Positions 4,316-62,708 of a stretch of DNA of 64,000 nucleotides are shown piece after piece (within the stretch, counting starts at the first letter, position 1; each line of letters opens with the position of its first letter). Location: positions 1 to 64,000 of the forward strand of contig JAKAHR010000007.1 in NCBI GenBank assembly GCA_021825365.1, given 5' to 3'. This DNA is from Nitrospirota bacterium. Its GTDB lineage: Bacteria; Nitrospirota; Thermodesulfovibrionia; Thermodesulfovibrionales; UBA6898. The position numbers and the translations under genes are program-made. Under the pieces are notes generated by a model. That model was not told the origin of the DNA and did not search any database. It was given only the letters and a program-made list of their open reading frames with translations.

Positions 4316-6052
4316 TCAGCGCTCCTGACCGCTGAACTGCATCTCGTACAATTTTCCGTATATGCCTCCCCGGCCGTAGAGTTCCTCGTGCGTGCCGGAC
4401 TCGGCGATCCTGCCCCTGTCGATCACGACTATCCGGTCAGCCCTCTTTATGGTGGAGAGCCGGTGGGCGATCACCAGGGTCGTGCGGTTCATCATGAGGT
4501 TTTCCATGGCCCGCTGCACCATCATCTCCGAGGCTGTATCAAGCGATGAAGTCGCCTCGTCAAGGATCAGGATCGGAGGGTTCCTGAGGATCGCCCGCGC
4601 TATAGACAGCCGCTGCCGCTGCCCCCCCGAGAGTCTCATGCCCCGTTCGCCGACGATGGTGTTGTAGCCCTGGGGCAGCTCCGCGATAAAGTCATGGGCA
4701 TAGGCGGCCTTTGCGGCTGAGACTATCTCCTCAAGGGAGGCCTCGGGCTTGCCGTAGGCGATGTTCGCCCGGACGGTGTCGTTGAAGAGCACCACCTCCT
4801 GGCTGACGATGCCGAACTGCCCCCGCAGCGACGGAAAGGTGGCTGTTGATATGTCGATGCCGTCGATGCAGATTTTCCCCTCTGTCGGCCTGAAGAAGCC
4901 GGGCAGGAGGTTCACGAGGGTCGTCTTGCCGCCGCCGCTCTTTCCGACAAAGGCGACGATCTCCCCTTTTCTTATCGTCAGGCGTATCGAATCCAGCGCC
5001 TTGTGTTTCTCCGACGGATAGGTGAATGAGACGTCCTGTATGTCGATGGAACTGCTGATGGCCGGCAGGATGACGTCGCCGTCCTTCTCCTGCGCCTCGG
5101 AGAAGAGATGGTCGATCCGGGCCAGGGGCGCTGTCGCCTGCTGGATGCCGATGTTGATCCGTGCGAGCCTCCGGGCCGGCGTGTAGATGAGGAAGACCGC
5201 GGTGAGGAAAGAGGTGAAATCTCCGACCGTGATGACATTGTTGATGATGAGCCGCGCGCCGTACCACATGACAAAGGCTATGCCGAGCCCTCCCACCGCC
5301 TCCATCATGAGGGACGACGCCTCGGACACCCGCGTTGCGCGCATGTTCTCGCGGTAGAAATCCCTGTTGATCAGGCGGAACCGCTCGGTCTGGTCTGCCT
5401 GGCGGTTGAAGGCCTTGATGATCTTTATCCCGGAAAAGGTCTCGTTCAGGAACTCGGTTATCGAGGATATCTTTTCCTGCGTGCGCCTGCTTATCTGTTT
5501 CATCCTCCTGCCGAGCCTGCCGACAACGTAGAAGGCGCTCGGCAGCACGATGATCGAGATGAGGGTCAGGTCCCACCGCCGCCAGATGGCGACCGCGGTG
5601 AGAGCGATGACGGAGAAGGTCTCGATAAAGAGGTCCTTGATGGTGAGAGACACCAGTTCCTGCAGCACGGCCGTGTCGTTGATCACCCTGGAGATGAGTT
5701 CTCCGCTTGAGTTTTTGCCGTAATAACCCAGCGGCAGGCCGACGGCATGTCCCAGGAGGCGGTTCCTGAGGTTCATGACCATCTTCTGTGCGGCCGAGCG
5801 CATGAGGTATTCGTGAAAAAAGGTCAATATACCCTTGAAGAGGAAGAGGAGAAAGACGCCGACCGGCAGGACGAGGAGCAGGCGCGCGTCCTTGCTGATG
5901 AAGATGTTGTCCATGGCGGGCTTGACCAGCCAGGCAAGCGCGGCATTCAGGCCCGAAACGGCGAGGCTGATGACGGCTGCCGCCGCAACCCGCTTCCGGT
6001 ACGGACCGACGAGGTGAAAAATCCTTTTAAGGTCTTCCATGGATTGCATCAT
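4316..6052 (-). CDS. msbA: lipid A export ABC transporter, fused permease/ATPase
   Basis: A 578-residue half-transporter of the usual MsbA length. Six hydrophobic segments lie within residues 1-310. The nucleotide-binding domain has Walker A GKSGGGKTT, Q-loop VSQEV, signature LSGGQRQR, Walker B ILILDEATSSLD and an H-loop in VIAHRLS. MsbA homodimers flip core-lipid A across the inner membrane using ATP. It heads the LPS gene run and is separated from the next glycosyltransferase by only about 50 bases. The start is ambiguous (ATGs at 6052, 6049 and 6040, with no clear Shine-Dalgarno). Other multidrug half-transporters look similar, but the context favours MsbA. Confidence 0.9.
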   Translation of the reverse strand: MMQSMEDLKRIFHLVGPYRKRVAAAAVISLAVSGLNAALAWLVKPAMDNIFISKDARLLLVLPVGVFLLFLFKGILTFFHEYLMRSAAQKMVMNLRNRLLGHAVGLPLGYYGKNSSGELISRVINDTAVLQELVSLTIKDLFIETFSVIALTAVAIWRRWDLTLISIIVLPSAFYVVGRLGRRMKQISRRTQEKISSITEFLNETFSGIKIIKAFNRQADQTERFRLINRDFYRENMRATRVSEASSLMMEAVGGLGIAFVMWYGARLIINNVITVGDFTSFLTAVFLIYTPARRLARINIGIQQATAPLARIDHLFSEAQEKDGDVILPAISSSIDIQDVSFTYPSEKHKALDSIRLTIRKGEIVAFVGKSGGGKTTLVNLLPGFFRPTEGKICIDGIDISTATFPSLRGQFGIVSQEVVLFNDTVRANIAYGKPEASLEEIVSAAKAAYAHDFIAELPQGYNTIVGERGMRLSGGQRQRLSIARAILRNPPILILDEATSSLDTASEMMVQRAMENLMMNRTTLVIAHRLSTIKRADRIVVIDRGRIAESGTHEELYGRGGIYGKLYEMQFSGQER

Positions 6053-6200
6053 TATAATCGAAGAATAGCAACAATATAAACCTTGGAACTGCCAAAACAG
6101 GCGGATATAAATGCGCGGGGATACCGGCAGTCGCTCGAACTCGGGAGCTGGGTTCTCACTACTACCTCACTACCTCAAATTAGTATAAACATAAGCCAGC

Positions 6201-6268
6201 GTCATTCCCCGGCTTGACCGGGGAATCCAGAAGGCACTGGATGCCCGCTTACAACCTGCGGGCATGAC
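6201..6268. repeat. interspersed palindromic repeat (three-hairpin, GTCAT...ATGAC ends)
   Basis: The segment is bounded by GTCAT at 6201 and ATGAC at 6264. Inside are three inverted pairs: ATTCCCCGG with CCGGGGAAT, ATCCAG with CTGGAT, and ATGCCCGC with GCGGGCAT, giving a cloverleaf-like fold. Elements of this form (a hairpin ending in GGAATCCAG followed by CTGGATGCCCGC) are known as dispersed intergenic repeats in many Gram-negative genomes. It lies in the 239-base divergence-free gap between msbA and the CYTH gene. Only one copy is present in this window. Confidence 0.7.
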
Positions 6269-6291
6269 AGACAATGAAGCTCAGACGGTCA

Positions 6292-6819
6292 CTATGTGCT
6301 CACCTTATAGTGGCGGGCGAGCTGTACTGCGTCCCACGGGAGGCAGTCTTCCTTCCTGAATCCCAGGAGTGAAGCGCAGTCGCGCACCGAAGGGACGTCA
6401 GGCCCCTCGATCTCCAGGAACTCGGGGATGTATTCGTGCTCTCCGTGGTATTTGTCCAGTTCGAAGCGCACCCCGGCCAGGGCGTAAGAGGTCCGGTGTT
6501 TTTCCATCTCGAGCCACGGGGTGAACCCGAGGGATTCCAGGATGGAGCGCATCCCCTCGAAGTCCGACACCGTCACCTCGGTCTCCTGCCGCACCTTGGC
6601 GTCTCTGTCTTCCACATGTCCCTTGTATGTCAGCACAGCGCGCAGCCCCTCTTTCCGCAGCCGCAATGTCCCCTTCTGTTTCCTCACACTCCGGTCCGGT
6701 GAATCATAATAGACGGCATGGATGGGACCGTCGAATACCAAGGAGGCGCCGAGGGATATGAGTCGCTGTTCCACGGCCTTCCTGTTGATCCCGAGTATCT
6801 TGACTTCAGCCTCAAGCAT
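6292..6819 (-). CDS. CYTH domain protein, class IV adenylate cyclase-like
   Basis: A 175-residue protein covering the whole CYTH fold. The N-terminal EAEVKILGI carries the alternating acidic/Lys ExExK signature that binds metal and triphosphate. Basic and acidic strand residues follow in LRLRKEG, LTYKGH and RQETEV, with ELDKY and FLEIEG near the C-terminus, as in CyaB/thiamine-triphosphatase relatives. I preferred the ATG at 6819 over 6837 because GGTGGAG lies just upstream. It may hydrolyse or cyclise a nucleotide or inorganic triphosphate. Substrate cannot be told from sequence and there are no cAMP genes nearby. Confidence 0.8.
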   Translation of the reverse strand: MLEAEVKILGINRKAVEQRLISLGASLVFDGPIHAVYYDSPDRSVRKQKGTLRLRKEGLRAVLTYKGHVEDRDAKVRQETEVTVSDFEGMRSILESLGFTPWLEMEKHRTSYALAGVRFELDKYHGEHEYIPEFLEIEGPDVPSVRDCASLLGFRKEDCLPWDAVQLARHYKVST

Positions 6820-6993
6820 GACGACTCCACCGCGCATTCATGCGATGATTATATCCCATCGCGCTGCTCCGTGAAAACAGATCGATGCGGCCGGCTGCGA
6901 GGGAGGATAATAACCCAAAATGCAGGCATGCTGAGAGGCGGCGCTTTAGGCCGCGGAAGCGCCGTTTTTTCCCGAAAAATGAGCTTTTTGGGC

Positions 6994-7022
6994 TTGACAA
7001 AAAAAAAACTTCTTGATACTGT
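6994..7022 (+). promoter_or_regulatory. sigma-70-type promoter for the HU gene
   Basis: A perfect TTGACA (6994-6999) is followed after 17 bases, mostly adenines, by TACTGT (7017-7022). It lies about 50 bases upstream of the HU start, whose ribosome site is the G-rich AAGGGGGG. The A-tract spacer suggests a strong, intrinsically curved promoter. Confidence 0.7.
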
Positions 7023-7074
7023 TATCAGCAGAGTTCTTCATTAACTAAATAACAAGAAAGGGGGGAAACACTTA

Positions 7075-7350
7075 ATGACCAAGACAGAGCTTATCGACAA
7101 AATAGCCTCAGGCGCGGGTCTCAGCAAGGCTGATGCGAACCGGGCACTTGATTCCACTCTGGATGCCGTTAAGGCGGCGCTTAAGAAGGGACAGAAAGTG
7201 ACTATCGTCGGATTCGGGACCTTTGCAGTGACCAAGAGGAAGGCGAGAAAGGGGCGCAACCCGAGGACGGGACAGGTGATCAATATCCCTGCGGCGAAGA
7301 CGCCGAAGTTTACCGCCGGCAAGGCACTCAAGGACGCTGTCAAGAAATAA
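7075..7350 (+). CDS. hup: HU-type DNA-binding protein
   Basis: A 91-codon gene encoding a standard-length HU/IHF-family histone-like protein. It starts [10 protein letters not shown] and contains VGFGTFAV and RNPRTGQ, followed by the DNA-binding beta-arm with the INIPA motif (Pro for intercalation) and the conserved C-terminal [13 protein letters not shown]. Homodimers bend and compact DNA non-specifically. The gene is monocistronic: it has its own strong promoter upstream and an intrinsic terminator 25 bases after the stop. Confidence 0.97.
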
Positions 7351-7374
7351 GTCTTTTTAGAAATGATATTATGG

Positions 7375-7409
7375 AAAGGGACAAACCGTGTTTGTCCCTT
7401 TTGTTTTCG
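7375..7409 (+). terminator. rho-independent terminator after hup
   Basis: A perfect 12-bp stem, AAAGGGACAAAC (7375-7386) with its complement at 7390-7401, closes a 3-base CGT loop and runs into TTTTGTTTT. It ends the HU transcript. Confidence 0.92.
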
Positions 7410-7701
7410 GCCTTTCTCTGATAAGCTGTTCACATGCGATGACCCGCGCAAAAGGAGGTTGCGATGCTTGTCCAATTCATCTTGCAGTTGCATAAATATC
7501 ATGAAAAGAGGGCGGGTGTGCAGAAAAAGACCCATATCCTGCGCGTACATGCGGACAGTCTTGCCACATATTGAGGATTACACCGGCAGTTATGTCCGCG
7601 ATATCCGTGATCAGAACTGATACTGCCGCCATATATGGGCTTTTTATGCATGCCAGACCTCTTTGGTTTGCAACGTTAGGGTTCAGTAGGCCCCTGAAGA
7701 A
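7410..7701. other. intergenic region, no gene recognised
   Basis: No convincing reading frame is present here. An 85-codon open frame at 7363-7620 begins before the HU terminator and runs through its stem, has no ribosome site or family motif, and was not accepted. The end of the gap must contain the promoter for the stress-protein gene at 7702, but I see no good -35/-10 pair. Confidence 0.5.
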
Positions 7702-8547
7702 GTGACCGGCAGGCCCTGCATACTGGCCGGCATAGATCTCGGCCCTGATACGGAGAAAGTCCTTGCCTATGCGGCATGCGCGGCATCCGCGTCCGGCAGC
7801 CGGCTGCAGCTCCTCTACGTCATCGACTACATGCTCACCCCGCCGGCCTACCTGTCATCCTATATCGAAGAAGAAAAAAGACGGGAGGAGGAGGAGATGG
7901 CTGCGTGGACCTCGCGGCTCGGAGCTGCCGGCATCGAGACGGGGCAGGGTACGGTTATAGGCCGTCTCCATGAGGCCTTTGTGGAGGCGCTCGCCGAGTT
8001 CTCCCCTGACCTGCTCATCATCGGACACCGCAGCCACCTTCTGCGTCCGAGCAGTTCCGAGCGACTCATCAGGTCCCTCTCCGTGCCTATGCTCGTCGTT
8101 CGGGGCAGGGCTGCCGGTGGGGCTTCCATAGGATCGGTGCGCATCAGCAGGATACTCTGTCCCGTGGACTTTTCGGACTGCTCCGCAAAGGCGGTGGCTG
8201 CGGCGCGGAGATATGCGGAGATGTTTTCATCTGAACTGAGGCTCCTGCACGTGATACCCTCTCATATAATGAAGGAGAGACTGGGCAGGCATAACTGCGG
8301 GAGGTTCGAGGACCTCCTCCTGGCCGAGGCGGCGAAAAAAATGGCGGCGCTCTCCCGGCATGCGGAAGAAGGAGAGGCGCTCCACGGCGACCCCTGCGAG
8401 GCGATCCCCGCGGTTGCGGAAGAGCTTGGCGCCGACCTCGTGGTGATGGGGGCCCGGGGCCTCTCCTATCTCAAGGGCATGCTCGTCGGGTCGACCACCG
8501 AAGCGGTGTTGAAGACGTCGCCCTGTCCCGTGCTCGTCGTGCGCTGA
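7702..8547 (+). CDS. tandem universal stress protein (two UspA domains)
   Basis: A 281-residue protein with two UspA domains, roughly residues 1-135 and 148-281. The second keeps the ATP-binding pattern GARGLSYLKGMLVGST followed by CPVLVVR. The first has the degenerate GHRSHLLRPSSSER, so it probably does not bind ATP. Such proteins bind ATP or regulate partners under stress. The start is a GTG with a weak AAGAA site. Its stop overlaps the ATG of the cation exchanger (TGATG), so the two are co-translated and the Usp may sense energy or ion status for the exchanger (inference). Confidence 0.9.
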   Translation: MTGRPCILAGIDLGPDTEKVLAYAACAASASGSRLQLLYVIDYMLTPPAYLSSYIEEEKRREEEEMAAWTSRLGAAGIETGQGTVIGRLHEAFVEALAEFSPDLLIIGHRSHLLRPSSSERLIRSLSVPMLVVRGRAAGGASIGSVRISRILCPVDFSDCSAKAVAAARRYAEMFSSELRLLHVIPSHIMKERLGRHNCGRFEDLLLAEAAKKMAALSRHAEEGEALHGDPCEAIPAVAEELGADLVVMGARGLSYLKGMLVGSTTEAVLKTSPCPVLVVR

Positions 8548-51661: not shown

Positions 51662-53665
51662 ATGGACCAGGAGAACAGGAAACAACAGGACATAACAGAT
51701 GCCGGCACCGCTATCGGCCGGATGCTGGAGACGCTTGAGGCTGAAGAGCAGAAGGGTGACGGCGCGGGAATTACCCGATGCTGCAACCGCATCGGTGCCC
51801 TGCACCAGGCTACGGGTGATTACGATGCTGCCCTCGCATTTTACCACAGGGCGCTTGAGGCTGCCGAAAGATCCGGGGACGGCGCCGGCGCCTCCCGCAG
51901 CTGCGACCGGATCGGCATGGTCTATCAGAAGCGGGGCGATTATGACAGGGCACTGGAGTTCCACCACAAGGCCCTCGGCATCGCCGAAGAGGTGGGTGAC
52001 GTCGCGGGCATCATCGAGGGGTGCAACCAGATCGGCATGGTCCATCAGAGCAGGGGAGATTATGACACTGCCCTGGAGTTTCACGATAAGGCCTTCCGGT
52101 TGGCTGCGGACGGGGGCGATACGGCCGGCATGGCCAGAAGCAGCAACCAGATGGGCATGGTATATCAGAACCGGGGAGACGCGGCGCGCGCCCTGGAGAT
52201 GGCCGGCAAGGCCCTCGCGGCGGCGGAAATGGCCGGTGATGTTGCCGAGGCCCTCAGAAGTCATAACCAGATCGGCATGGTCCTGCAGGGAAGGGGCGAC
52301 TACGACAAGGCGCTCGAGCGCCATCGCACGGCATTGGGGATGGCCGAAGACATCGGAGACGTTGCAGAGGCCTCTGAATGCTACCACCAGATGGGGGTTG
52401 TCCATCAGCGGCGGGGCGACTACGACAAGGCGCTCGAATTTCACCGCAGGGCGCTGGAAATAGCCCGGAGGATCGGCGATATCGCCGAGGAGGCGAAGTG
52501 CTACCACCAGATGGGCGTTGTCCACCAGAAGCGGGGGGATTATGACACCGCCTTTGAGTTCCACCAGAAGGCCCTCTGCATCAACGAGAAGATCGGCAAT
52601 GTCGCCGCTGTTTCACGGAGCTATAACCAGATGGGTATCGTCTATCTTAACAGGGGCGAATACGACTGGGCACTGGAATACTGCCAAAAGGCGCTGGACA
52701 TAGCCGAACGGATCCGCGACGCTGCCATGGGTTCGGTCGGTTACCAGAACATCGGTATCGTCCACCAGAAGCGGGGCGAATACGACAAGGCCCTGGAACT
52801 GGCGCAGCGGGCTCTCGAGATGAAGGCACACACGGATGATTTCTACGGCATCCTCAGGATCTACGGGCAGATGGGACTCCTGCACAAGCTCAAGGGCGAC
52901 TACGGGAAGGCGCTCGAATACTCCGAAAAGGCGCTTGAACTCGCCGAGAAGATCGGAGACGCTGCCGGCGTCGCGAAGAGCTACAACCAGATCGGCATAA
53001 TCCACCAGAGCCGGGGCGACTACGGCGGTGCGCTGCAGCTTTTTCACAAGGCGCTTGAACTTGCCGAGAAGATCGGAGACGTCGCCGAGATATCCGAGAG
53101 CCATAACCAGATCGGGATCGTCCATCAGAGCCGCGGGGACTACGACCGGTCCCTCGAGTTTTTCAAAAAGGCGCTGGGTATCGCAAAGGGCATCGGCGAC
53201 ATTGCGGGCGTCTTCAAGAGCTACCACCAGATCGGCATCGCACACCAGAACAAGAATGAGTACGACGCCGCCTTCGACTACCACCGCCAGGCGCTTGAGA
53301 TCGCAGAGCGCATCGGGGACATCACCGGCGTGTCGAAGAGCTATCACCAGATCGGGATCGTCCACCAGAGCCGTGGGGACTACGACCGGGCACTCGAGTT
53401 TTACCAGAAGGCGCTCGAGATCGCCAAGCGGGTCGGGGACGTGGCGGGTGTCGCGAGCAGTATCGGCATGGTCGGCAAGGCGATGCAGATGAAGAAGAAC
53501 TATATTGACGCCTTCGTCAACTACCTCGTGTCGCTCGACATATTCGAGAAACTCGGCTCGCCCAATGTGGAGATCGTCCACGGGTTGATCACCGAGCTTA
53601 CCAAGGAGATGGGGGAAGAGGACTTCAGCAAGCTTCTTGAGGAGTTGAAGAACAAGAAGCAGTAG
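51662..53665 (+). CDS. TPR-repeat protein (about 14 tandem 40-residue units)
   Basis: A 667-residue protein. After a 41-residue head, fourteen units of exactly 40 residues follow, each beginning NQIGIVHQSRGDYD and ending in LEIAEKIGDVAGVSKSY-like steps, then a degenerate fifteenth unit and a C-terminal helix EELKNKKQ. The units resemble kinesin-light-chain and Rapsyn-type TPRs, which make protein-binding superhelices. No catalytic domain, signal peptide or membrane segment is seen. The start ATG is preceded by GTGTAATC with no clear ribosome site. It is divergent from the Lys-rich gene. Confidence 0.88.
   Translation: MDQENRKQQDITDAGTAIGRMLETLEAEEQKGDGAGITRCCNRIGALHQATGDYDAALAFYHRALEAAERSGDGAGASRSCDRIGMVYQKRGDYDRALEFHHKALGIAEEVGDVAGIIEGCNQIGMVHQSRGDYDTALEFHDKAFRLAADGGDTAGMARSSNQMGMVYQNRGDAARALEMAGKALAAAEMAGDVAEALRSHNQIGMVLQGRGDYDKALERHRTALGMAEDIGDVAEASECYHQMGVVHQRRGDYDKALEFHRRALEIARRIGDIAEEAKCYHQMGVVHQKRGDYDTAFEFHQKALCINEKIGNVAAVSRSYNQMGIVYLNRGEYDWALEYCQKALDIAERIRDAAMGSVGYQNIGIVHQKRGEYDKALELAQRALEMKAHTDDFYGILRIYGQMGLLHKLKGDYGKALEYSEKALELAEKIGDAAGVAKSYNQIGIIHQSRGDYGGALQLFHKALELAEKIGDVAEISESHNQIGIVHQSRGDYDRSLEFFKKALGIAKGIGDIAGVFKSYHQIGIAHQNKNEYDAAFDYHRQALEIAERIGDITGVSKSYHQIGIVHQSRGDYDRALEFYQKALEIAKRVGDVAGVASSIGMVGKAMQMKKNYIDAFVNYLVSLDIFEKLGSPNVEIVHGLITELTKEMGEEDFSKLLEELKNKKQ
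51785..53458 (+). repeat. tandem 120-bp coding repeats
   Basis: The TPR units are exactly periodic at 120 bases: the I codon of units 1 and 14 lie 1560 bases (13 x 120) apart. Third-position changes show the copies are not identical at the DNA level, but stretches such as ATCGTCCACCAGAGCCG recur. The array makes long open frames on the complementary strand. Confidence 0.85.
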
Positions 53666-56322: not shown

Positions 56323-56393
56323 GGGGTAGTATACCATTGCGGCTGATGTCTCTTCCCCTTGCAAATATGCCGGAAATCTGTTATCCCATATGC

Positions 56394-57683
56394 ATGGCCG
56401 ATGATTCGCTGGTCACGATTCCCGCCGGTTCGCTGCGGGCGATGGAACGGAAGGTCGAGTCCTTCAAGACCCTCGTCGAGATATCGACGATCATATCCTC
56501 TACGCTTGACCTCGAAGAATTGATGTCTCTTGTCATGGAAAAGGCGAAGGGCGTTATGGGGGCCGAGGCATGCTCCATCCTCTTTTATAACCGCGACCTG
56601 CAGAAGCTCGAGTTCGAAGTCGCTGTCTGCCAGGAGGGGGACGCATCGAACATACTCAAGAAGAAGGTGTTGCTCGATGTCGGCCAGGGGATCGCCGGAT
56701 GGGTAGCCGAGCACCTGGAGCCGCTCATCATCGAAGACGTGAAAAAAGATTCCCGCTTCTTCCAGGGTGCCGACAAGATGACCGGTTTCGAGACGCGGGG
56801 CCTGATCGCCGTCCCGCTCATCGGCAGGCGGGGCCTGATCGGTGTTGCCGAGATGGTGAACCCCGGCAGGTTCGATTTTGACATGGAGATATTCCAGCTG
56901 CTCTGCAGGCAGTTTGCGATAGCCATAGAGAACTCGCTTGCCCACAGGGAATCCCTCCAGCGCGAAAGGCTGAGGCAGGAACTCGACATCGCCTCCGCTC
57001 TGCAGAGGAGTTTTCTCCCTGAGTTCCCCACCCTGAGCCTGGGCGATCTGACTGTCTCTGCGGTCAACATATCGGCCGCCAAGGTGGGCGGGGATATCTA
57101 CGACTTCGTCACGCCCGTGGAGGGAAAGCTCGGAGTGCTCATCGGCGATGTCTCGGGCAAGGGGGTATCCGCTGCCCTGTACATGGCCAAGGCGAGCAGC
57201 GACTTCAGGTATATCTCGAGCCGGGCCGAATCGCCGGCGGCTGTCCTCGACGGCCTCAACACGGCCCTTTCCCGCTACCCCCGTGGCATGTTCCTCACCG
57301 CGATCTACCTGATCGCAAACAGCGCAAATGGCGAGGTGCTGATCTCCAGCGCAGGACATCCGCCCTGCATCTGGATCACGGCAGAGGAGGTCCGGGTGCT
57401 CTCCGTGGCGTCCGGCCCGCCGCTGGGGATTGTCCCGACCGGCTACGAGGCGACCCCTATCGCCCTCGGCAGGGGCGAGCGGCTTATCCTCCTTACTGAC
57501 GGCGTATTCGACGCCAGGGACCGCTCAGGCGCGAGGCTGGGTTTTGAACAGGTGGTCGAATTCATCAGGCGCCACCGGGGCGAGGAGGATATCGTACCGA
57601 AGCTTGTCGATCTGGTGACCGATTTTTCCGACGGAACCGAGCGGGCTGACGACCTCACGATTGTAGAGGTCCGGCGGGGATGA
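56394..57683 (+). CDS. GAF-SpoIIE/PP2C serine phosphatase (RsbU-like)
   Basis: A 429-residue protein. N-terminal helices lead into a GAF domain (about residues 30-185, with FETRGLIAVPLIGR), a coiled-coil link (HRESLQRERLRQELDIA) and a PP2C/SpoIIE phosphatase domain with the metal-binding motifs VGGDIYDF, IGDVSGKGVSAAL, LTDGVFDARD and RADDLTIVEV. Such enzymes dephosphorylate STAS antagonists in partner-switching. It overlaps the kinase gene by ATGA, and that kinase gene overlaps the STAS gene, so its substrate is probably the STAS protein encoded two genes on. Start at 56394 is uncertain, with no strong ribosome site. Confidence 0.9.
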   Translation: MADDSLVTIPAGSLRAMERKVESFKTLVEISTIISSTLDLEELMSLVMEKAKGVMGAEACSILFYNRDLQKLEFEVAVCQEGDASNILKKKVLLDVGQGIAGWVAEHLEPLIIEDVKKDSRFFQGADKMTGFETRGLIAVPLIGRRGLIGVAEMVNPGRFDFDMEIFQLLCRQFAIAIENSLAHRESLQRERLRQELDIASALQRSFLPEFPTLSLGDLTVSAVNISAAKVGGDIYDFVTPVEGKLGVLIGDVSGKGVSAALYMAKASSDFRYISSRAESPAAVLDGLNTALSRYPRGMFLTAIYLIANSANGEVLISSAGHPPCIWITAEEVRVLSVASGPPLGIVPTGYEATPIALGRGERLILLTDGVFDARDRSGARLGFEQVVEFIRRHRGEEDIVPKLVDLVTDFSDGTERADDLTIVEVRRG

Positions 57684-58126
57684 GGCTGCCGAAAGACTCG
57701 GCTGTCATCACCATCCCCTCGCAGCCGAAGTACCTCTGCGTGGTGCGGGAGGCAGCCGCGCGGATGGCTGATATGGGAGGTTTTGACGCCTCTGCGGTCG
57801 AGGATATAAGGCTCGCTGTTGATGAAGCATGCTCAAATGTAATAAAGTATGCATATGGCGGTGACGGCGGAAAGCGGATCACCGTACGGTTCAGAAACAC
57901 CGTGGCAGGATTCGAGGCACTGATCGAAGACAGCGGGCCCCGGACCGACCCAGCCTGCCTGAAGGGGCGGGACCTCGATGAGGTGAGGCCGGGAGGACTC
58001 GGCATACATTTTATCAGGAGAACATTCGATGTCGTCGCTTTCGACGAAAGGAAACGGAACGGCAACCGGCTCAGGCTGCTGAAATACCGCGATCGTGGAC
58101 ATGAAGATAGACATACAGGAACATAA
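57680..58126 (+). CDS. HATPase_c anti-sigma-type serine kinase (RsbW/SpoIIAB-like)
   Basis: A 148-residue kinase of the SpoIIAB/RsbW type. The N-box is ARLAVDEACSN-like (IRLAVDEACSNVIKYAY, with E49 and N53), the G1 box EDSGP and the G2 box GGLGIHFIRR. The domain covers the whole protein. It would phosphorylate the STAS protein on Ser and, in classical modules, bind a sigma factor, but here the STAS gene is inside an Mla operon. It overlaps the phosphatase and STAS genes at both ends. Confidence 0.9.
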   Translation: MRLPKDSAVITIPSQPKYLCVVREAAARMADMGGFDASAVEDIRLAVDEACSNVIKYAYGGDGGKRITVRFRNTVAGFEALIEDSGPRTDPACLKGRDLDEVRPGGLGIHFIRRTFDVVAFDERKRNGNRLRLLKYRDRGHEDRHTGT

Positions 58127-58430
58127 GGGCATCAAGGTCTTCGCCCTGTCAGGGGAGATCGACATGTCGTCCTCGCCTGTGCTCAGGAGCGAGCTCATGG
58201 GGCTCGTCAGCAGGAAGGTGCCGGTCGTATTCGTGGATTTTAAGGACGTCTCCTACATCGACAGCTCAGGCATCGCCACCTTTGTCGAGGGACTGAAGGC
58301 GATGATGCCCTACGGCGGAAGGCTGAAGCTCCTGGGCGTCCCCGCAAAGATCATGGAGATATTCAACTTCTCAAAGCTCGACAAGGTCTTCGAGATATAC
58401 GGGAACGTTGAGGATGCCTTCAAGGGCTGA
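58101..58430 (+). CDS. STAS-domain protein (RsbV/MlaB-like)
   Basis: A 109-residue STAS protein. The phosphorylatable Ser site is YIDSSGIATF with S56 the likely target, in the position of Ser58 of SpoIIAA. Preceding strands VFALSGEIDMSS match the family. Its end overlaps the mlaE start by 17 bases. In Mla systems a STAS protein (MlaB) binds the MlaF ATPase and is needed for the complex; in partner-switch systems the STAS is the Ser-phosphorylated antagonist. Its position fits both. The start could be GTG at 58095. Confidence 0.9.
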   Translation: MKIDIQEHKGIKVFALSGEIDMSSSPVLRSELMGLVSRKVPVVFVDFKDVSYIDSSGIATFVEGLKAMMPYGGRLKLLGVPAKIMEIFNFSKLDKVFEIYGNVEDAFKG

Positions 58431-59220
58431 GACCTTCTTCGGGTTCATCGGAAACCGGGTCCTTTCCCTCAGGAGGGATGTCCACGACGCCGCAGTAATT
58501 ATCAACCAGACCTTCTACTGGAGCACCCTCTCACCGCTCCGGGGCAAACCCATCAGGCTCAGGGCGAGCATTTCGGAGATGGTGAAGGCGGGCTATAACT
58601 CCGTGCCGATCGTTGCGGTCATCTCGCTCTTTGTCGGAATCATCCTTGCCCTGCAGTCCGCCTACCAGCTCAAGCGGGTGGGGGCGCTCATCTATGTCGC
58701 GGACCTCGTGGGCGTCTCGCTCACCCGGGAGCTCAGCCCTATCCTGACCGCTATCATCGTCTCCGGACGCAGCGGCTCGGCCTTTGCCGCCGAGATCGGC
58801 TCGATGAAGGCGGCGGAAGAGGTGGACGCCCTCATCACGATGGGCATCAACCCGGTGCGCTTCCTCGTGGTGCCGAAGCTCATCGCCCTCGTCGTGATGG
58901 TCCCTGCCCTCACGATCATATCGGACGTTATCGGTATCTTCGGAGGGTTTCTCCTATCCATCACCGCGCTGGAGATGAACGCTTTTAACTATTTTCAGGA
59001 GACGATAAACGCGCTGCATATAAAGGACATCATGACGGGCCTGGTGAAGGCGCTGGCCTTCGGCGTCGTGATCACCATCGTCGGGGCCTTTGAAGGATTC
59101 AAGGTGGAAGGCGGAGCAGAGGAGGTGGGGAGGCGGACGACCGCGTCGGTCGTCGCCTCCATCTTCCTGGTGATCGTTTTCGATCTCTTCTTTACCACGC
59201 TCTTTTACTATTTCACATGA
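58414..59220 (+). CDS. mlaE: MlaE family phospholipid transporter permease
   Basis: A 268-residue inner-membrane protein with five or six hydrophobic helices. It contains VAVISLFVGIILALQSAYQLK, ELSPILTAIIVSGRSGSAFAAE and EEVDALITMGINPVRFLVVPK, which are MlaE signatures, and the C-terminal EGFKVEGGAEEVGRRTTASVV. With MlaF and MlaD it forms the inner-membrane complex that moves phospholipids between membranes. ATG at 58414 or TTG at 58408. Confidence 0.94.
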   Translation: MPSRAETFFGFIGNRVLSLRRDVHDAAVIINQTFYWSTLSPLRGKPIRLRASISEMVKAGYNSVPIVAVISLFVGIILALQSAYQLKRVGALIYVADLVGVSLTRELSPILTAIIVSGRSGSAFAAEIGSMKAAEEVDALITMGINPVRFLVVPKLIALVVMVPALTIISDVIGIFGGFLLSITALEMNAFNYFQETINALHIKDIMTGLVKALAFGVVITIVGAFEGFKVEGGAEEVGRRTTASVVASIFLVIVFDLFFTTLFYYFT

Positions 59221-59233
59221 CGGGGAAAGATCA

Positions 59234-60031
59234 CTGAGCGAACCAGCGGGAAATGCGATTCAGGTCGTCGGGCTCCAGACCCATTACGGCACGAGGGAGA
59301 TACTCAAGAACGTCACGGTCGACATCCCGAAAGGGAAGACCACCGTCATCCTCGGCGGCAGCGGCTGCGGGAAGAGCACGTTTCTCAAGCATGTCATCGG
59401 ACTGCTTCGGCCCACGCGCGGACAGATCGTCATCAACGGCAGGGACATAACCGCGATCGGTACCGGCGAGATGGACGAGGTGCGGCGGAAGATGGGTGTC
59501 CTCTTCCAGGGCGGCGCGCTCCTGAATTCGATGACCGTCATGGACAACGTGGCGCTTCCGATACGGGAGCATACTAAGCTGGGCGAGTCCACGATACAGA
59601 TCATGGTGCGCATGAAGCTCGACCTGGTGGGGCTGTCGGGCTTTGAGAACTTCTATCCGTCCCAGCTTTCCGGAGGCATGAAAAAAAGGGCGGGCCTCGC
59701 CCGCGCCATGGCCCTTGACCCGGAGATACTCTTTTTTGATGAACCCTCGGCCGGTCTCGACCCGGTGACGGCCGCCGGACTCGACGAGCTTATCCTGAAG
59801 CTCTGCACCGTGTTCCGGATGACGATCGTGGTCGTAACCCATGAGCTGGCAAGTATATTCACCATCGCTGATTATGTTATCATGCTCGATGCCGGCGCCG
59901 TTCTCTACGCCGGAGATCTGGCGGGGTTGAAGGCATCGGATAACCCCCGGATCAGGATGTTTCTGGAACGCAGACCCGAGACAGAGACCTACTCTCCGGA
60001 CGATTATTTCCGGTTCATCGCCGGGGACTGA
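59234..60031 (+). CDS. mlaF: MlaF ATPase, apparent CTG start
   Basis: A 265-residue ATPase. The coding frame carries Walker A GGSGCGKST (about residues 41-49), Q-loop FQGGALL, signature LSGGMKKR, Walker B ILFFDEPSAGLDP and H-loop VVTHELA. The only plausible start is CTG at 59234, behind GGGGAAAGATCA: no in-frame ATG, GTG or TTG exists between the upstream in-frame stop at 59171 and the conserved start AIQVVGLQTHYG. The first in-frame ATG at 59471 would delete Walker A. An ATGA at 59217 overlapping the mlaE stop is out of frame and ends after six codons, so a single-base indel is the alternative to CTG. Confidence 0.88.
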   Translation: MSEPAGNAIQVVGLQTHYGTREILKNVTVDIPKGKTTVILGGSGCGKSTFLKHVIGLLRPTRGQIVINGRDITAIGTGEMDEVRRKMGVLFQGGALLNSMTVMDNVALPIREHTKLGESTIQIMVRMKLDLVGLSGFENFYPSQLSGGMKKRAGLARAMALDPEILFFDEPSAGLDPVTAAGLDELILKLCTVFRMTIVVVTHELASIFTIADYVIMLDAGAVLYAGDLAGLKASDNPRIRMFLERRPETETYSPDDYFRFIAGD

Positions 60032-60042
60032 CAGGAGGCCAG

Positions 60043-60939
60043 GTGAAAGAGGAGATCAAGGCCGGCATCATCATCGTCACGTCGCTCGTCGTGCTGACGC
60101 TTATCGTCATCCTCATCGGAGGGGGCAGGTTCTACGAGAAGACGGATGTCTACGTCATCAAGGTGATGAATTCCGCGGGGCTGGAGCCAGGGGCGCAGGT
60201 GCGCCTCGGGGGCGTGAGGGTCGGAAAGGTGACGGACATCAAGGGACCCGACGGACCCGGCAAGCCTCTTACCATCGAGATCGGGGTCAAGACAGGGACG
60301 CCTCTTTACAAGGGGACGAAGGCGATGGTGAGCCAGATAGGCTTTGTCGGCGACATCTACCTTCTCCTGACCGTGGACAAGGCCACCGGGGAGAGGATAC
60401 CCCCCGGACAGGAGCTCCCTTCCGAAGAAACGATCGGCTTCAACGAGATCATGGCACGGGTGGACAGTCTTTCCCGGAATGTGGACGGCCTTGTCACGGA
60501 CGTGGACAAGCTCTTCAGCCAGAAGAACATACAGCAGGTGGAACGGCTCGTCGGCAACACCAACGACGCCATCGTAAAGGGCACTGCGAGCGTCGAGAAG
60601 GTGGCGAACTCCCTGAAGGCCACGGCTGAGAAGCTCGAGGTCGTGCTCAACGAGATCGAGGACGTGGTGAAATCCAACAAGGGAGACGTGTCGGTTCTGA
60701 TCAGGAAGGCCCATGAGGACCTGGAGAAGGCAGGCGAGATGATCAAGAGCTTTGAGGAGACCGCCCGTGCGGTCACGAAGACCTCCGGGTCAGTAGACCG
60801 GGCTGTGGAGGCCCAGTCGCGGAACCTCGGCAGCCTGATCGAGCGGATGAACAGGACGACGGAGGACCTGCAGGACCTGTTGCAGGAGATCAAGGTCAAG
60901 CCGTGGAGCATACTTTACAAGGAGCAAAGGGGTGAGTGA
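60043..60939 (+). CDS. mlaD: MlaD/MCE-domain substrate-binding protein
   Basis: A 298-residue protein anchored by one N-terminal helix (AGIIIVTSLVVLTLIVILIG), followed by the MCE domain (about residues 37-115: GLEPGAQVRLGGVRVGKV and VSQIGFVGDIYLLL). The rest is a long helical coiled-coil (NTNDAIVKGTASVEKVANSL), as in MCE proteins that form a tunnel toward the outer membrane. GTG start at 60043. It binds phospholipid in the periplasm and is the partner of MlaE/F. Confidence 0.93.
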   Translation: MKEEIKAGIIIVTSLVVLTLIVILIGGGRFYEKTDVYVIKVMNSAGLEPGAQVRLGGVRVGKVTDIKGPDGPGKPLTIEIGVKTGTPLYKGTKAMVSQIGFVGDIYLLLTVDKATGERIPPGQELPSEETIGFNEIMARVDSLSRNVDGLVTDVDKLFSQKNIQQVERLVGNTNDAIVKGTASVEKVANSLKATAEKLEVVLNEIEDVVKSNKGDVSVLIRKAHEDLEKAGEMIKSFEETARAVTKTSGSVDRAVEAQSRNLGSLIERMNRTTEDLQDLLQEIKVKPWSILYKEQRGE

Positions 60940-60940
60940 T

Positions 60941-61525
60941 ATGCGCAGATGGATCGTCGTTGGGATGATGCTTGCCGTGCTCGGGGGCTGCAGCACGCCC
61001 CGGACGAACATATACAGCCTCTACCTGGGCGGCGACCAGACTGTCCGGGACAGGTCTGCAGGGGCGGACCTTGTCGTGCACACCAGGGCGCTGCGGTATC
61101 TGACCCAGCCCTACATCGCCTGCAGGACCTCACCCTATCAACTTGAAATCTCCCCGTACTCCAAATGGGTGGCATCCCCCGAGGAGATGGTCCGCGATGC
61201 ATTCAGGGAAAGATTCGCCCTCTCCGGCCTTTTCAGGGAGGTTCGTTCTTCATCCTCCGGAGCCGCTGGTTCCCATGTTCTTGAGATCGACCTGAAACGC
61301 TTTGAAAGGACCGACCTTCCTGCCGGGTCGTCTGCAGAAGTCCTGCTGGAATACTCCTTCCTCTCTCCCGAGGGAAAGGAACTCGCCCGCGGGACTGTGT
61401 CGAAGAAGGTGGCGCTTGCCGACAGCGGGTTTCTTGAGCTGGCAAAGGCCCTCAGTGCCGGCCTTTCCGAGGGCATTGACGAGGTCCGGGCCGCTGTTGC
61501 GAAGACGGTTCCTTCAGGCAGCTGA
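60941..61525 (+). CDS. ABC-type transport auxiliary lipoprotein (PqiC-like)
   Basis: A 194-residue lipoprotein. The signal GMMLAVLGGCS ends in a lipobox LGGC, so the mature protein is lipid-anchored. The mature part contains TNIYSLYLGG, the Y-x-L pattern of the ABC_trans_aux family (PqiC/YmbA/MlaD-associated), then PYSKWVASPEEMVRDAFRERF. It is 1 base after mlaD and closes the operon. It probably sits in the outer membrane and receives the MCE tunnel. Confidence 0.85.
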   Translation: MRRWIVVGMMLAVLGGCSTPRTNIYSLYLGGDQTVRDRSAGADLVVHTRALRYLTQPYIACRTSPYQLEISPYSKWVASPEEMVRDAFRERFALSGLFREVRSSSSGAAGSHVLEIDLKRFERTDLPAGSSAEVLLEYSFLSPEGKELARGTVSKKVALADSGFLELAKALSAGLSEGIDEVRAAVAKTVPSGS

Positions 61526-61532
61526 CCGCACG

Positions 61533-62708
61533 TCACAGTCTTCTTCTGAACAGGGCGAAGAAATGCTCTTTCAGCTTCTCGACCAGGGGACGCTGCCTCC
61601 ATGTCTCCAGGGCTATCCTCTCTGACTTCAGCAGGTCATTGAAGAATATCTCGGTCATCAGCCTGCCGAACGCCGGGTCAATAATGCCGACGTTCCCCTC
61701 GTCGTTCCTGCGCAACGATTGGAAATCGAGGTTCGCCGACCCGATGACCGACCAGCAGCGGTCGAAGACAGCGGTCTTGGCATGGAGTATCTCCCCGTTG
61801 TAGGAGTAGATCTCGACCCCGGCCTTCAGGAGACGGGTGAAGAAGGCCCGGGCCGCATAGAAGGCCGCGGTGATGTCCGACTTGCCCGGCAGAAGAAGTT
61901 TTACGTCAACGCCCCGTGCCACCGCCTCCTCGAGGACCTGGATCATCCTCCTGCTGGGCGTAAAATAAGCGGTAGTGAGATAGATGTTCCTTTGCGCACG
62001 GGTGATGCTGTAGTAGAGAAGTTTGCGCATCCGCCTCCTCCCCCTGGCGGTGCTGGCGAAGATCGGGAGCACCGCCAGGCCCCCGGGCAGGGGCTGCACG
62101 TCCCTGTCGAAGGGTATGGGTTCTCCCTTCCAGATCTCCCATGATTTTTTGAAGGTCTCCAGGAGCCTCCGGGCAACGGGTCCTTCGAGGATGATCCCCG
62201 TATCCCGCCATCCCCTCCTTTTTTTCCTGAGACGGTAATACCCCCGGTATTCATTAGCTATGTTCAGCCCACCGGTGAACGCCTTATGGCCGTCGATGAC
62301 GATGAGTTTCCGGTGATCCCGGTGCACATAGTGAAAGGGCGCTCTCCAGGTGAAGGGTCGTGATGCCCGCACCCTGATCCCCGCCTCCTTCAGAGTCTTC
62401 CAGAATTTCATCGGTGTCCCGAAGGAACCGAAATGGTCATAGAGCACATGGACCTTCACGCCCTCTGCCACCTTCCTCCGGAGGATCTCCGCCAGTTCGC
62501 TGCCTGTCTCGTCATTTCTGAAGATATAGAACTCGAGACAGATGATCTCCCGAGCCTCCTCCACCGCATCAAAGATACTGCGGAAGGACTCCTGCTCTTT
62601 CCAGAGAAGCGTTACGGAATTGCCTTCCGTAAAGAATGCGCCGTAGGCCTTCTGGATGCCCTGCTGGGAGAAGACCTCTGTCGTTTCCGTCGCCTCGCCG
62701 ACCTGCAT
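61533..62708 (-). CDS. phospholipase D-type cardiolipin synthase
   Basis: A 391-residue protein with two HKD motifs: HRKLIVID at the first (then FTGGLNIANEYRG) and HAKTAVFD at the second (then VIGSANLDFQSLRRNDE). It is a ClsB-type PLDc enzyme making cardiolipin or related phospholipid at the membrane. No N-terminal membrane helix is obvious, in agreement with the ClsB group. It is convergent with the Mla-type lipoprotein gene by 7 bases, so lipid synthesis and transport are adjacent. Confidence 0.9.
   Translation of the reverse strand: MQVGEATETTEVFSQQGIQKAYGAFFTEGNSVTLLWKEQESFRSIFDAVEEAREIICLEFYIFRNDETGSELAEILRRKVAEGVKVHVLYDHFGSFGTPMKFWKTLKEAGIRVRASRPFTWRAPFHYVHRDHRKLIVIDGHKAFTGGLNIANEYRGYYRLRKKRRGWRDTGIILEGPVARRLLETFKKSWEIWKGEPIPFDRDVQPLPGGLAVLPIFASTARGRRRMRKLLYYSITRAQRNIYLTTAYFTPSRRMIQVLEEAVARGVDVKLLLPGKSDITAAFYAARAFFTRLLKAGVEIYSYNGEILHAKTAVFDRCWSVIGSANLDFQSLRRNDEGNVGIIDPAFGRLMTEIFFNDLLKSERIALETWRQRPLVEKLKEHFFALFRRRL

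Follow-up and report, generated by a model that had tools for sequence, protein, structure and literature searches.

Can a lipid transporter be the output of a bacterial partner switch? The question is raised by an operon in a 64,000-nucleotide stretch of DNA from a Nitrospirota bacterium (GenBank assembly GCA_021825365.1, contig JAKAHR010000007.1, positions 1 to 64,000; hereafter the window), part of contig 17 in a genome of 3.26 Mb that is about 91% complete. Seven genes follow one another on the plus strand and encode a SpoIIE phosphatase, an RsbW-type kinase, a STAS protein, MlaE, MlaF, MlaD and a PF03886 lipoprotein. The tight arrangement described in an earlier note on this DNA was borne out, as all genes are present and the junctions are, in order, overlaps of 4, 26 and 23 nucleotides (nt) followed by gaps of 13, 11 and 1 nt. 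The operon holds the MlaE permease, MlaF ATPase and MlaD MCE protein of an MlaFEDB-type MCE transporter; no MlaC was seen within it. We think it likely that this is a partner-switching module with an MCE/Mla-type lipid ATP-binding cassette (ABC) transporter as its effector and the STAS protein as an MlaB-like subunit. The kinase and phosphatase probably switch the transporter on and off via one STAS serine.

Conservation of the operon in Nitrospirota

We surveyed 396 Nitrospirota genomes from 170 genera using an alignment search for the kinase (E ≤ 1e-20) and found it in 59 genomes and 36 genera from several classes of the phylum. The earlier note had named gene order in relatives as a check, and this order is kept: phosphatase, kinase and STAS genes share order and strand in all 58 loci besides the window, and mlaE comes next in 57 of them. 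The sole exception (L094, genome G378) retains the kinase, STAS and lipoprotein genes but has neither mlaE nor mlaF, and its phosphatase gene is disrupted; its state would reflect decay or an assembly fault. In five loci (L108, L109, L111, L116 and L120) the phosphatase-kinase-STAS-mlaE series has no adjoining mlaF, and the genome encodes its matching MlaF at another site. All seven genes occur in the same order in six named Nitrospirota contigs. A contig search with a single-protein query returned six Nitrospirota loci and two distant loci without Mla, and the closest named relatives of the window are Nitrospirota metagenome-assembled genomes. One further Nitrospirota family has the kinase-STAS-mlaE order in 10 of 11 strong kinase matches (two of the 11 already counted among the 58 loci), the eleventh ending at a contig edge; the phosphatase lies within the 1.5 kb flank in 9 of these 10 loci. 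A plasmid search with the kinase gave eight weak records, none above 35% identity and none mla-annotated under the match (neighbours were not read), and viral contigs gave none.

The reverse test, an alignment search of the same genome set with MlaE (E ≤ 1e-90), yielded 50 genomes, 45 of which coincide with the kinase list. Since a STAS gene stands upstream of the close MlaE in 50 of 50 genomes and kinase and phosphatase genes are also there in 46, the operon-type mlaE is always accompanied by the STAS gene. Four of the non-coinciding genomes belong to a single genus. Their STAS gene overlaps or abuts mlaE, the locus gives no match to kinase or phosphatase, and no kinase is found at 1e-20 genome-wide. 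The fifth, on a short contig, carries a phosphatase fragment, kinase, STAS and response-regulator genes and then mlaE. Chance adjacency is ruled out by the conservation in both directions, 57/58 when starting from the kinase and 50/50 when starting from MlaE.

The genus that keeps the STAS-mlaE pair without kinase and phosphatase would suit an explanation in which the STAS protein acts as an MlaB subunit constitutively, the kinase and phosphatase have their role with another STAS protein or in another process, and the linkage is purely historical. Three other STAS genes in the genome also speak for it, but one belongs to a SulP transporter, one stands beside its own kinase domain and the third is a further gene. 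Moreover, kinase and STAS genes overlap by 11–26 nt across six aligned relatives, their order is strict in 58 loci, and at locus L138 of another family a 574-residue fusion protein of phosphatase and kinase is encoded immediately before STAS and mlaE. We therefore regard a historical linkage as very improbable.

As a separate observation, locus L241 (genome G083) carries at positions 1–2063 apparent Hanks-type kinase and PP2C phosphatase genes about 4 kb upstream of STAS-mlaE. The genome is complete, without an RsbW-type kinase at the locus, and the Hanks-type kinase/PP2C pair was not seen in L240.

Components of the switch

The first three proteins provide the parts of a module of the RsbU/RsbV/RsbW type. 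The phosphatase is a sensor-linked SpoIIE/PP2C enzyme whose metal-binding Asp residues in the GGDxYD, GDxSGKG, TDG and DD motifs are kept in 57–58 of 58 relatives, and it is the only SpoIIE match in the whole genome. The kinase is a GHKL serine kinase with N, G1 and G2 boxes; the N-box Glu and Asn are invariant (58/58) and the G1 Asp and G2 GGxG are found in 57/58. GAF-sensed input, as suggested earlier, fits the phosphatases of the window and of L133, which carry a GAF domain. It is only one of the sensors, as another Nitrospirota family has a response-regulator (REC) domain in its place. A second partner-switch-like set, without SpoIIE, was seen in L033 (G000 contig 33, about 4994–8202), where an RsbW-like kinase domain is joined to an AAA ATPase and has as neighbours a STAS gene and a gene for a GAF/HD-GYP-like protein.

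The STAS protein has a phosphorylatable serine after an aspartate: Asp54, Ser55 and Ser56 are invariant in 58/58 relatives. In an AlphaFold2 (AF2) model (predicted local distance difference test score, pLDDT, 93.5), Ser55 lies at the start of helix 2 (H55-71). The residue aligned with both the RsbV phosphoserine and E. coli MlaB T52 is the first serine after the aspartate, i.e. S55 counted from the ATG at 58101 (S57 from the GTG at 58095), which moves the predicted phosphosite by one from the S56 given in the earlier note. T52 of E. coli MlaB occupies the position of the SpoIIAA phosphosite, close to the middle of the interface with MlaF, and the T52E change makes binding to MlaF weaker (PMC7367683). 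Control of MlaB via T52 phosphorylation was proposed in two studies, without evidence in cells (PMC5016091, PMC7367683). Judged from sequence, the kinase and phosphatase would act on the operon STAS protein in the same operon.

The MlaF tail accompanies the STAS gene

In E. coli the C-terminal tail of MlaF (Tyr261, Leu265, Leu266) fits into the groove that separates MlaB from MlaF (PMC7367683, PMC5016091). Operon-type MlaFs have a C-terminal tail of 22–30 residues with a D-Y type motif in 54 of 54 examined, and this tail is absent in 43/43 other MlaFs of the same family. A first motif count gave nine apparent matches among the other MlaFs, which were left out because all of them fall within a long fused domain. 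The tail of one family is nearly the E. coli sequence (SSKDYREDLLVG versus AGDYHADLLPGS). Detached MlaFs, including those of the kinase-less genus, keep the tail, and therefore it goes with the STAS gene and not with the kinase. Two features of an MlaFEDB-type transporter are thus present, a STAS gene encoded with the transporter and an MlaF tail for the STAS protein. An AF2 model of MlaF (7-row alignment) was poor, with a pLDDT of 55, and was not used. Ten STAS-less MlaFs of related genomes (L162, L163, L165 and L172–L178) have a different C-terminal extension of about 175 residues. A Pfam scan of one of these extensions points to a GGDEF-like domain in degenerate form (E 0.0018, below the cut-off), which suggests another mode of control for lipid transport.

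In midpoint-rooted MlaE and MlaF trees, the operon-type proteins group with a lineage whose MlaE carries a fused STAS-like domain and with no other sampled paralogue (support 0.50 for MlaE and 0.999 for MlaF). In this sister lineage the STAS-like domain is N-terminal. Its physical tie to MlaE recalls the operon, but the MlaF has no C-terminal tail and no kinase or phosphatase was found in the fetched neighbourhoods. One 395-residue MlaE (L031, G000 contig 28) has an N-terminal STAS-like domain with a WDSGLLTFL motif; the domain gives no Pfam STAS match but is conserved in relatives. Pairwise distances over 48 loci correlate at 0.92 for STAS-MlaF and 0.96 for MlaE-MlaF, as is expected for jointly inherited genes.

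Sigma factors and alternative targets

In an ordinary anti-sigma switch the kinase would sequester a sigma factor from another locus and be antagonized by the STAS protein, and the mla genes would merely be co-transcribed, perhaps as targets of the sigma factor. The closeness of STAS protein and kinase to RsbV and RsbW is in line with this. A Sigma70_r2 search of the genome gave seven matches, comprising four RpoD-like factors, two extracytoplasmic function (ECF) factors and one 45-residue fragment; no SigB/F-type factor was found among these matches in the roughly 91% complete genome. The SigB/F/G model has a cut-off of 234 bits; the RpoD-like factors score 119–129 with it, and none of the intact sigma-70 factors attains the cut-off. 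The earlier note had held that a sigma factor encoded elsewhere, if bound by the kinase while the STAS protein never contacts MlaF, would speak against transporter control; the intact candidates are RpoD-like or ECF. Since no canonical SigB/F-type target was found, we describe the module as acting like a partner switch and do not class it as an anti-sigma system.

An anti-sigma role retains some weight because a sigma factor could be missing from the assembly at this completeness and because related kinases include some with RpoS-like targets: the kinase domain of the HsbR/CrsR system can bind RpoS (PMC6482189). Four RpoD-like factors are available in the genome. On the other hand, the module adjoins mlaE in 57/58 loci, the STAS gene remains with mlaE where the kinase is absent, and the MlaF tail tracks the STAS gene. 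We consider an anti-sigma role unlikely. Slightly less probable again is a dual output, in which the STAS protein alternates between MlaF and the kinase, and the freed kinase takes on a sigma factor or some other molecule as an additional partner, so that envelope lipid transport is coupled to transcription. HsbA of Pseudomonas aeruginosa indeed has several partners according to its phosphorylation state (PMC6482189), but no second partner gene was seen adjoining the operon at the locus.

Several observations weigh against the transporter as effector. The STAS protein is nearer to RsbV than to MlaB by sequence and fold, and it has a fifth strand and a last helix that E. coli MlaB lacks. The best PDB match of its model is RsbV of the RsbV-RsbW complex 6m36, with E. 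coli MlaB (7ch7_E) at rank 48. Neither family models nor a minimal fold mark it as MlaB; in NCBIfam it matches anti-sigma antagonist models and no MlaB model. The four genomes of the kinase-less genus keep the STAS serine with neither kinase nor phosphatase at the locus, so in that genus the residue has a role that does not depend on this kinase. E. coli MlaB T52A is inactive yet binds MlaF (PMC7367683, PMC5016091), and the site is therefore more than a simple phosphoswitch. The contrast of 54 and 43 tails does not represent 54 independent events because the operon-type MlaFs are largely one lineage, and a shorter MlaF extension has been modelled in Veillonella, which has no MlaB (PMC10665443). 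Both STAS-MlaF binding and phosphorylation of the STAS protein are inferred here.

Operon features and neighbouring genes

The MlaF reading frame has no ATG, GTG or TTG start. Translation most likely begins at the CTG at 59234, which follows GGGGAAAG and which the closest relative L037 also has. Convergent with the operon end is a gene for a cardiolipin-synthase-like PLD protein (61533–62708, minus strand). Further upstream, at 51662–53665 (plus strand), a 667-residue TPR-repeat protein is encoded, with long open antisense frames.

Table 1. Genes and sites of the operon, with positions in the window.
Feature	Position	Strand	Evidence and remarks
GAF + SpoIIE-type (PP2C) serine phosphatase, RsbU-like	56394..57683	+	PF07228 1e-42; GAF PF13185/PF01590; alternative start TTG 56337
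RsbW-type GHKL serine kinase	57680..58126	+	HATPase_c_2 1e-25; best PDB match RsbW 6m36
STAS protein, RsbV-like sequence and fold, proposed MlaB-equivalent subunit	58101..58430	+	TIGR00377 above cut-off
STAS Asp54-Ser55-Ser56	58260..58268	+	Ser55 (58263-58265) is the predicted phosphorylation site, aligned with RsbV Asp-Ser-Thr
MlaE permease	58408..59220	+	PF02405 2.5e-76; TIGR00056 above cut-off
MlaF ATPase, probable CTG start	59234..60031	+	best PDB matches P. aeruginosa MlaF 7ch8 and other MlaF/MCE ATPases
MlaF C-terminal extension TETYSPDDYFRFIAGD	59981..60028	+	counterpart of MlaB-contacting E. coli MlaF tail (Tyr261, Leu265, Leu266)
MlaD-type MCE protein, long form, helical C-terminus	60043..60939	+	PF02470 2.6e-12; TIGR00996 7e-21, below curated cut-off
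Auxiliary lipoprotein, PqiC-like family	60941..61525	+	PF03886 2.4e-12; alternative start GTG 60932

Comparison with known systems

The operon shares with E. coli MlaFEDB the MlaE, MlaF and MlaD homologues, a STAS gene encoded with the transporter, the D-Y tail of MlaF and a Ser/Thr at the equivalent STAS position. It differs in that its STAS protein is RsbV-like with a complete fold, is encoded ahead of mlaE and comes with a kinase and phosphatase of its own; the operon also has a longer MlaD, the PF03886 lipoprotein and no MlaC. With RsbU/RsbV/RsbW and SpoIIE/SpoIIAA/SpoIIAB it has in common a sensor-phosphatase, a GHKL kinase and an Asp-Ser STAS antagonist, and both kinase and STAS protein match 6m36. 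Unlike these systems it contains no sigma factor gene, and the transporter is the conserved neighbour.

Outputs of partner switches other than sigma factors are known and include diguanylate cyclases (PMC6482189). The HsbR-HsbA-HsbD system of P. aeruginosa is similar to the operon in having such an output, the diguanylate cyclase HsbD. HsbR combines REC, phosphatase and kinase in one protein, the same plan as in L138 (PMC6482189). Instead of an ABC transporter, however, the outputs of this system are cyclic di-GMP synthesis, FlgM and RpoS.

Proposed mechanism and implications

With the lipid transporter as effector, the switch may work as follows. Unphosphorylated STAS protein would dock on MlaF, partly held by the C-terminal tail of MlaF, and the MlaFED complex would then assemble and hydrolyze ATP. 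The RsbW-like kinase would phosphorylate STAS Ser55, sequester the STAS protein or do both, depriving MlaF of its activator and stopping transport. When the GAF domain (or the response-regulator domain in the other family) senses its signal, the SpoIIE phosphatase would remove the phosphate and transport would resume. That phosphorylation turns the transporter off and that its cargo is phospholipid are what we infer for this scheme.

More broadly, we lean towards the view that Nitrospirota have a class of outer-membrane lipid transporters under post-translational gating by a dedicated partner switch, whose sensors (GAF or response regulator) are exchangeable and which involves no sigma factor. 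In the open-licence PMC literature that was searched we found no report of a kinase, phosphatase or partner switch at an mla operon, and MlaB phosphorylation is an open question there. Because kinase and phosphatase are encoded here with the STAS subunit and the transporter, the T52-phosphorylation proposal made for E. coli MlaB is directly testable in this system. If the proposed switch is true, the conserved Ser/Thr of MlaB-type STAS subunits would be a genuine phosphoswitch with an identified kinase and phosphatase. A lipid ABC transporter would then join the outputs of partner switching, suggesting that STAS modules can be exchanged between the control of transcription and that of transporters.

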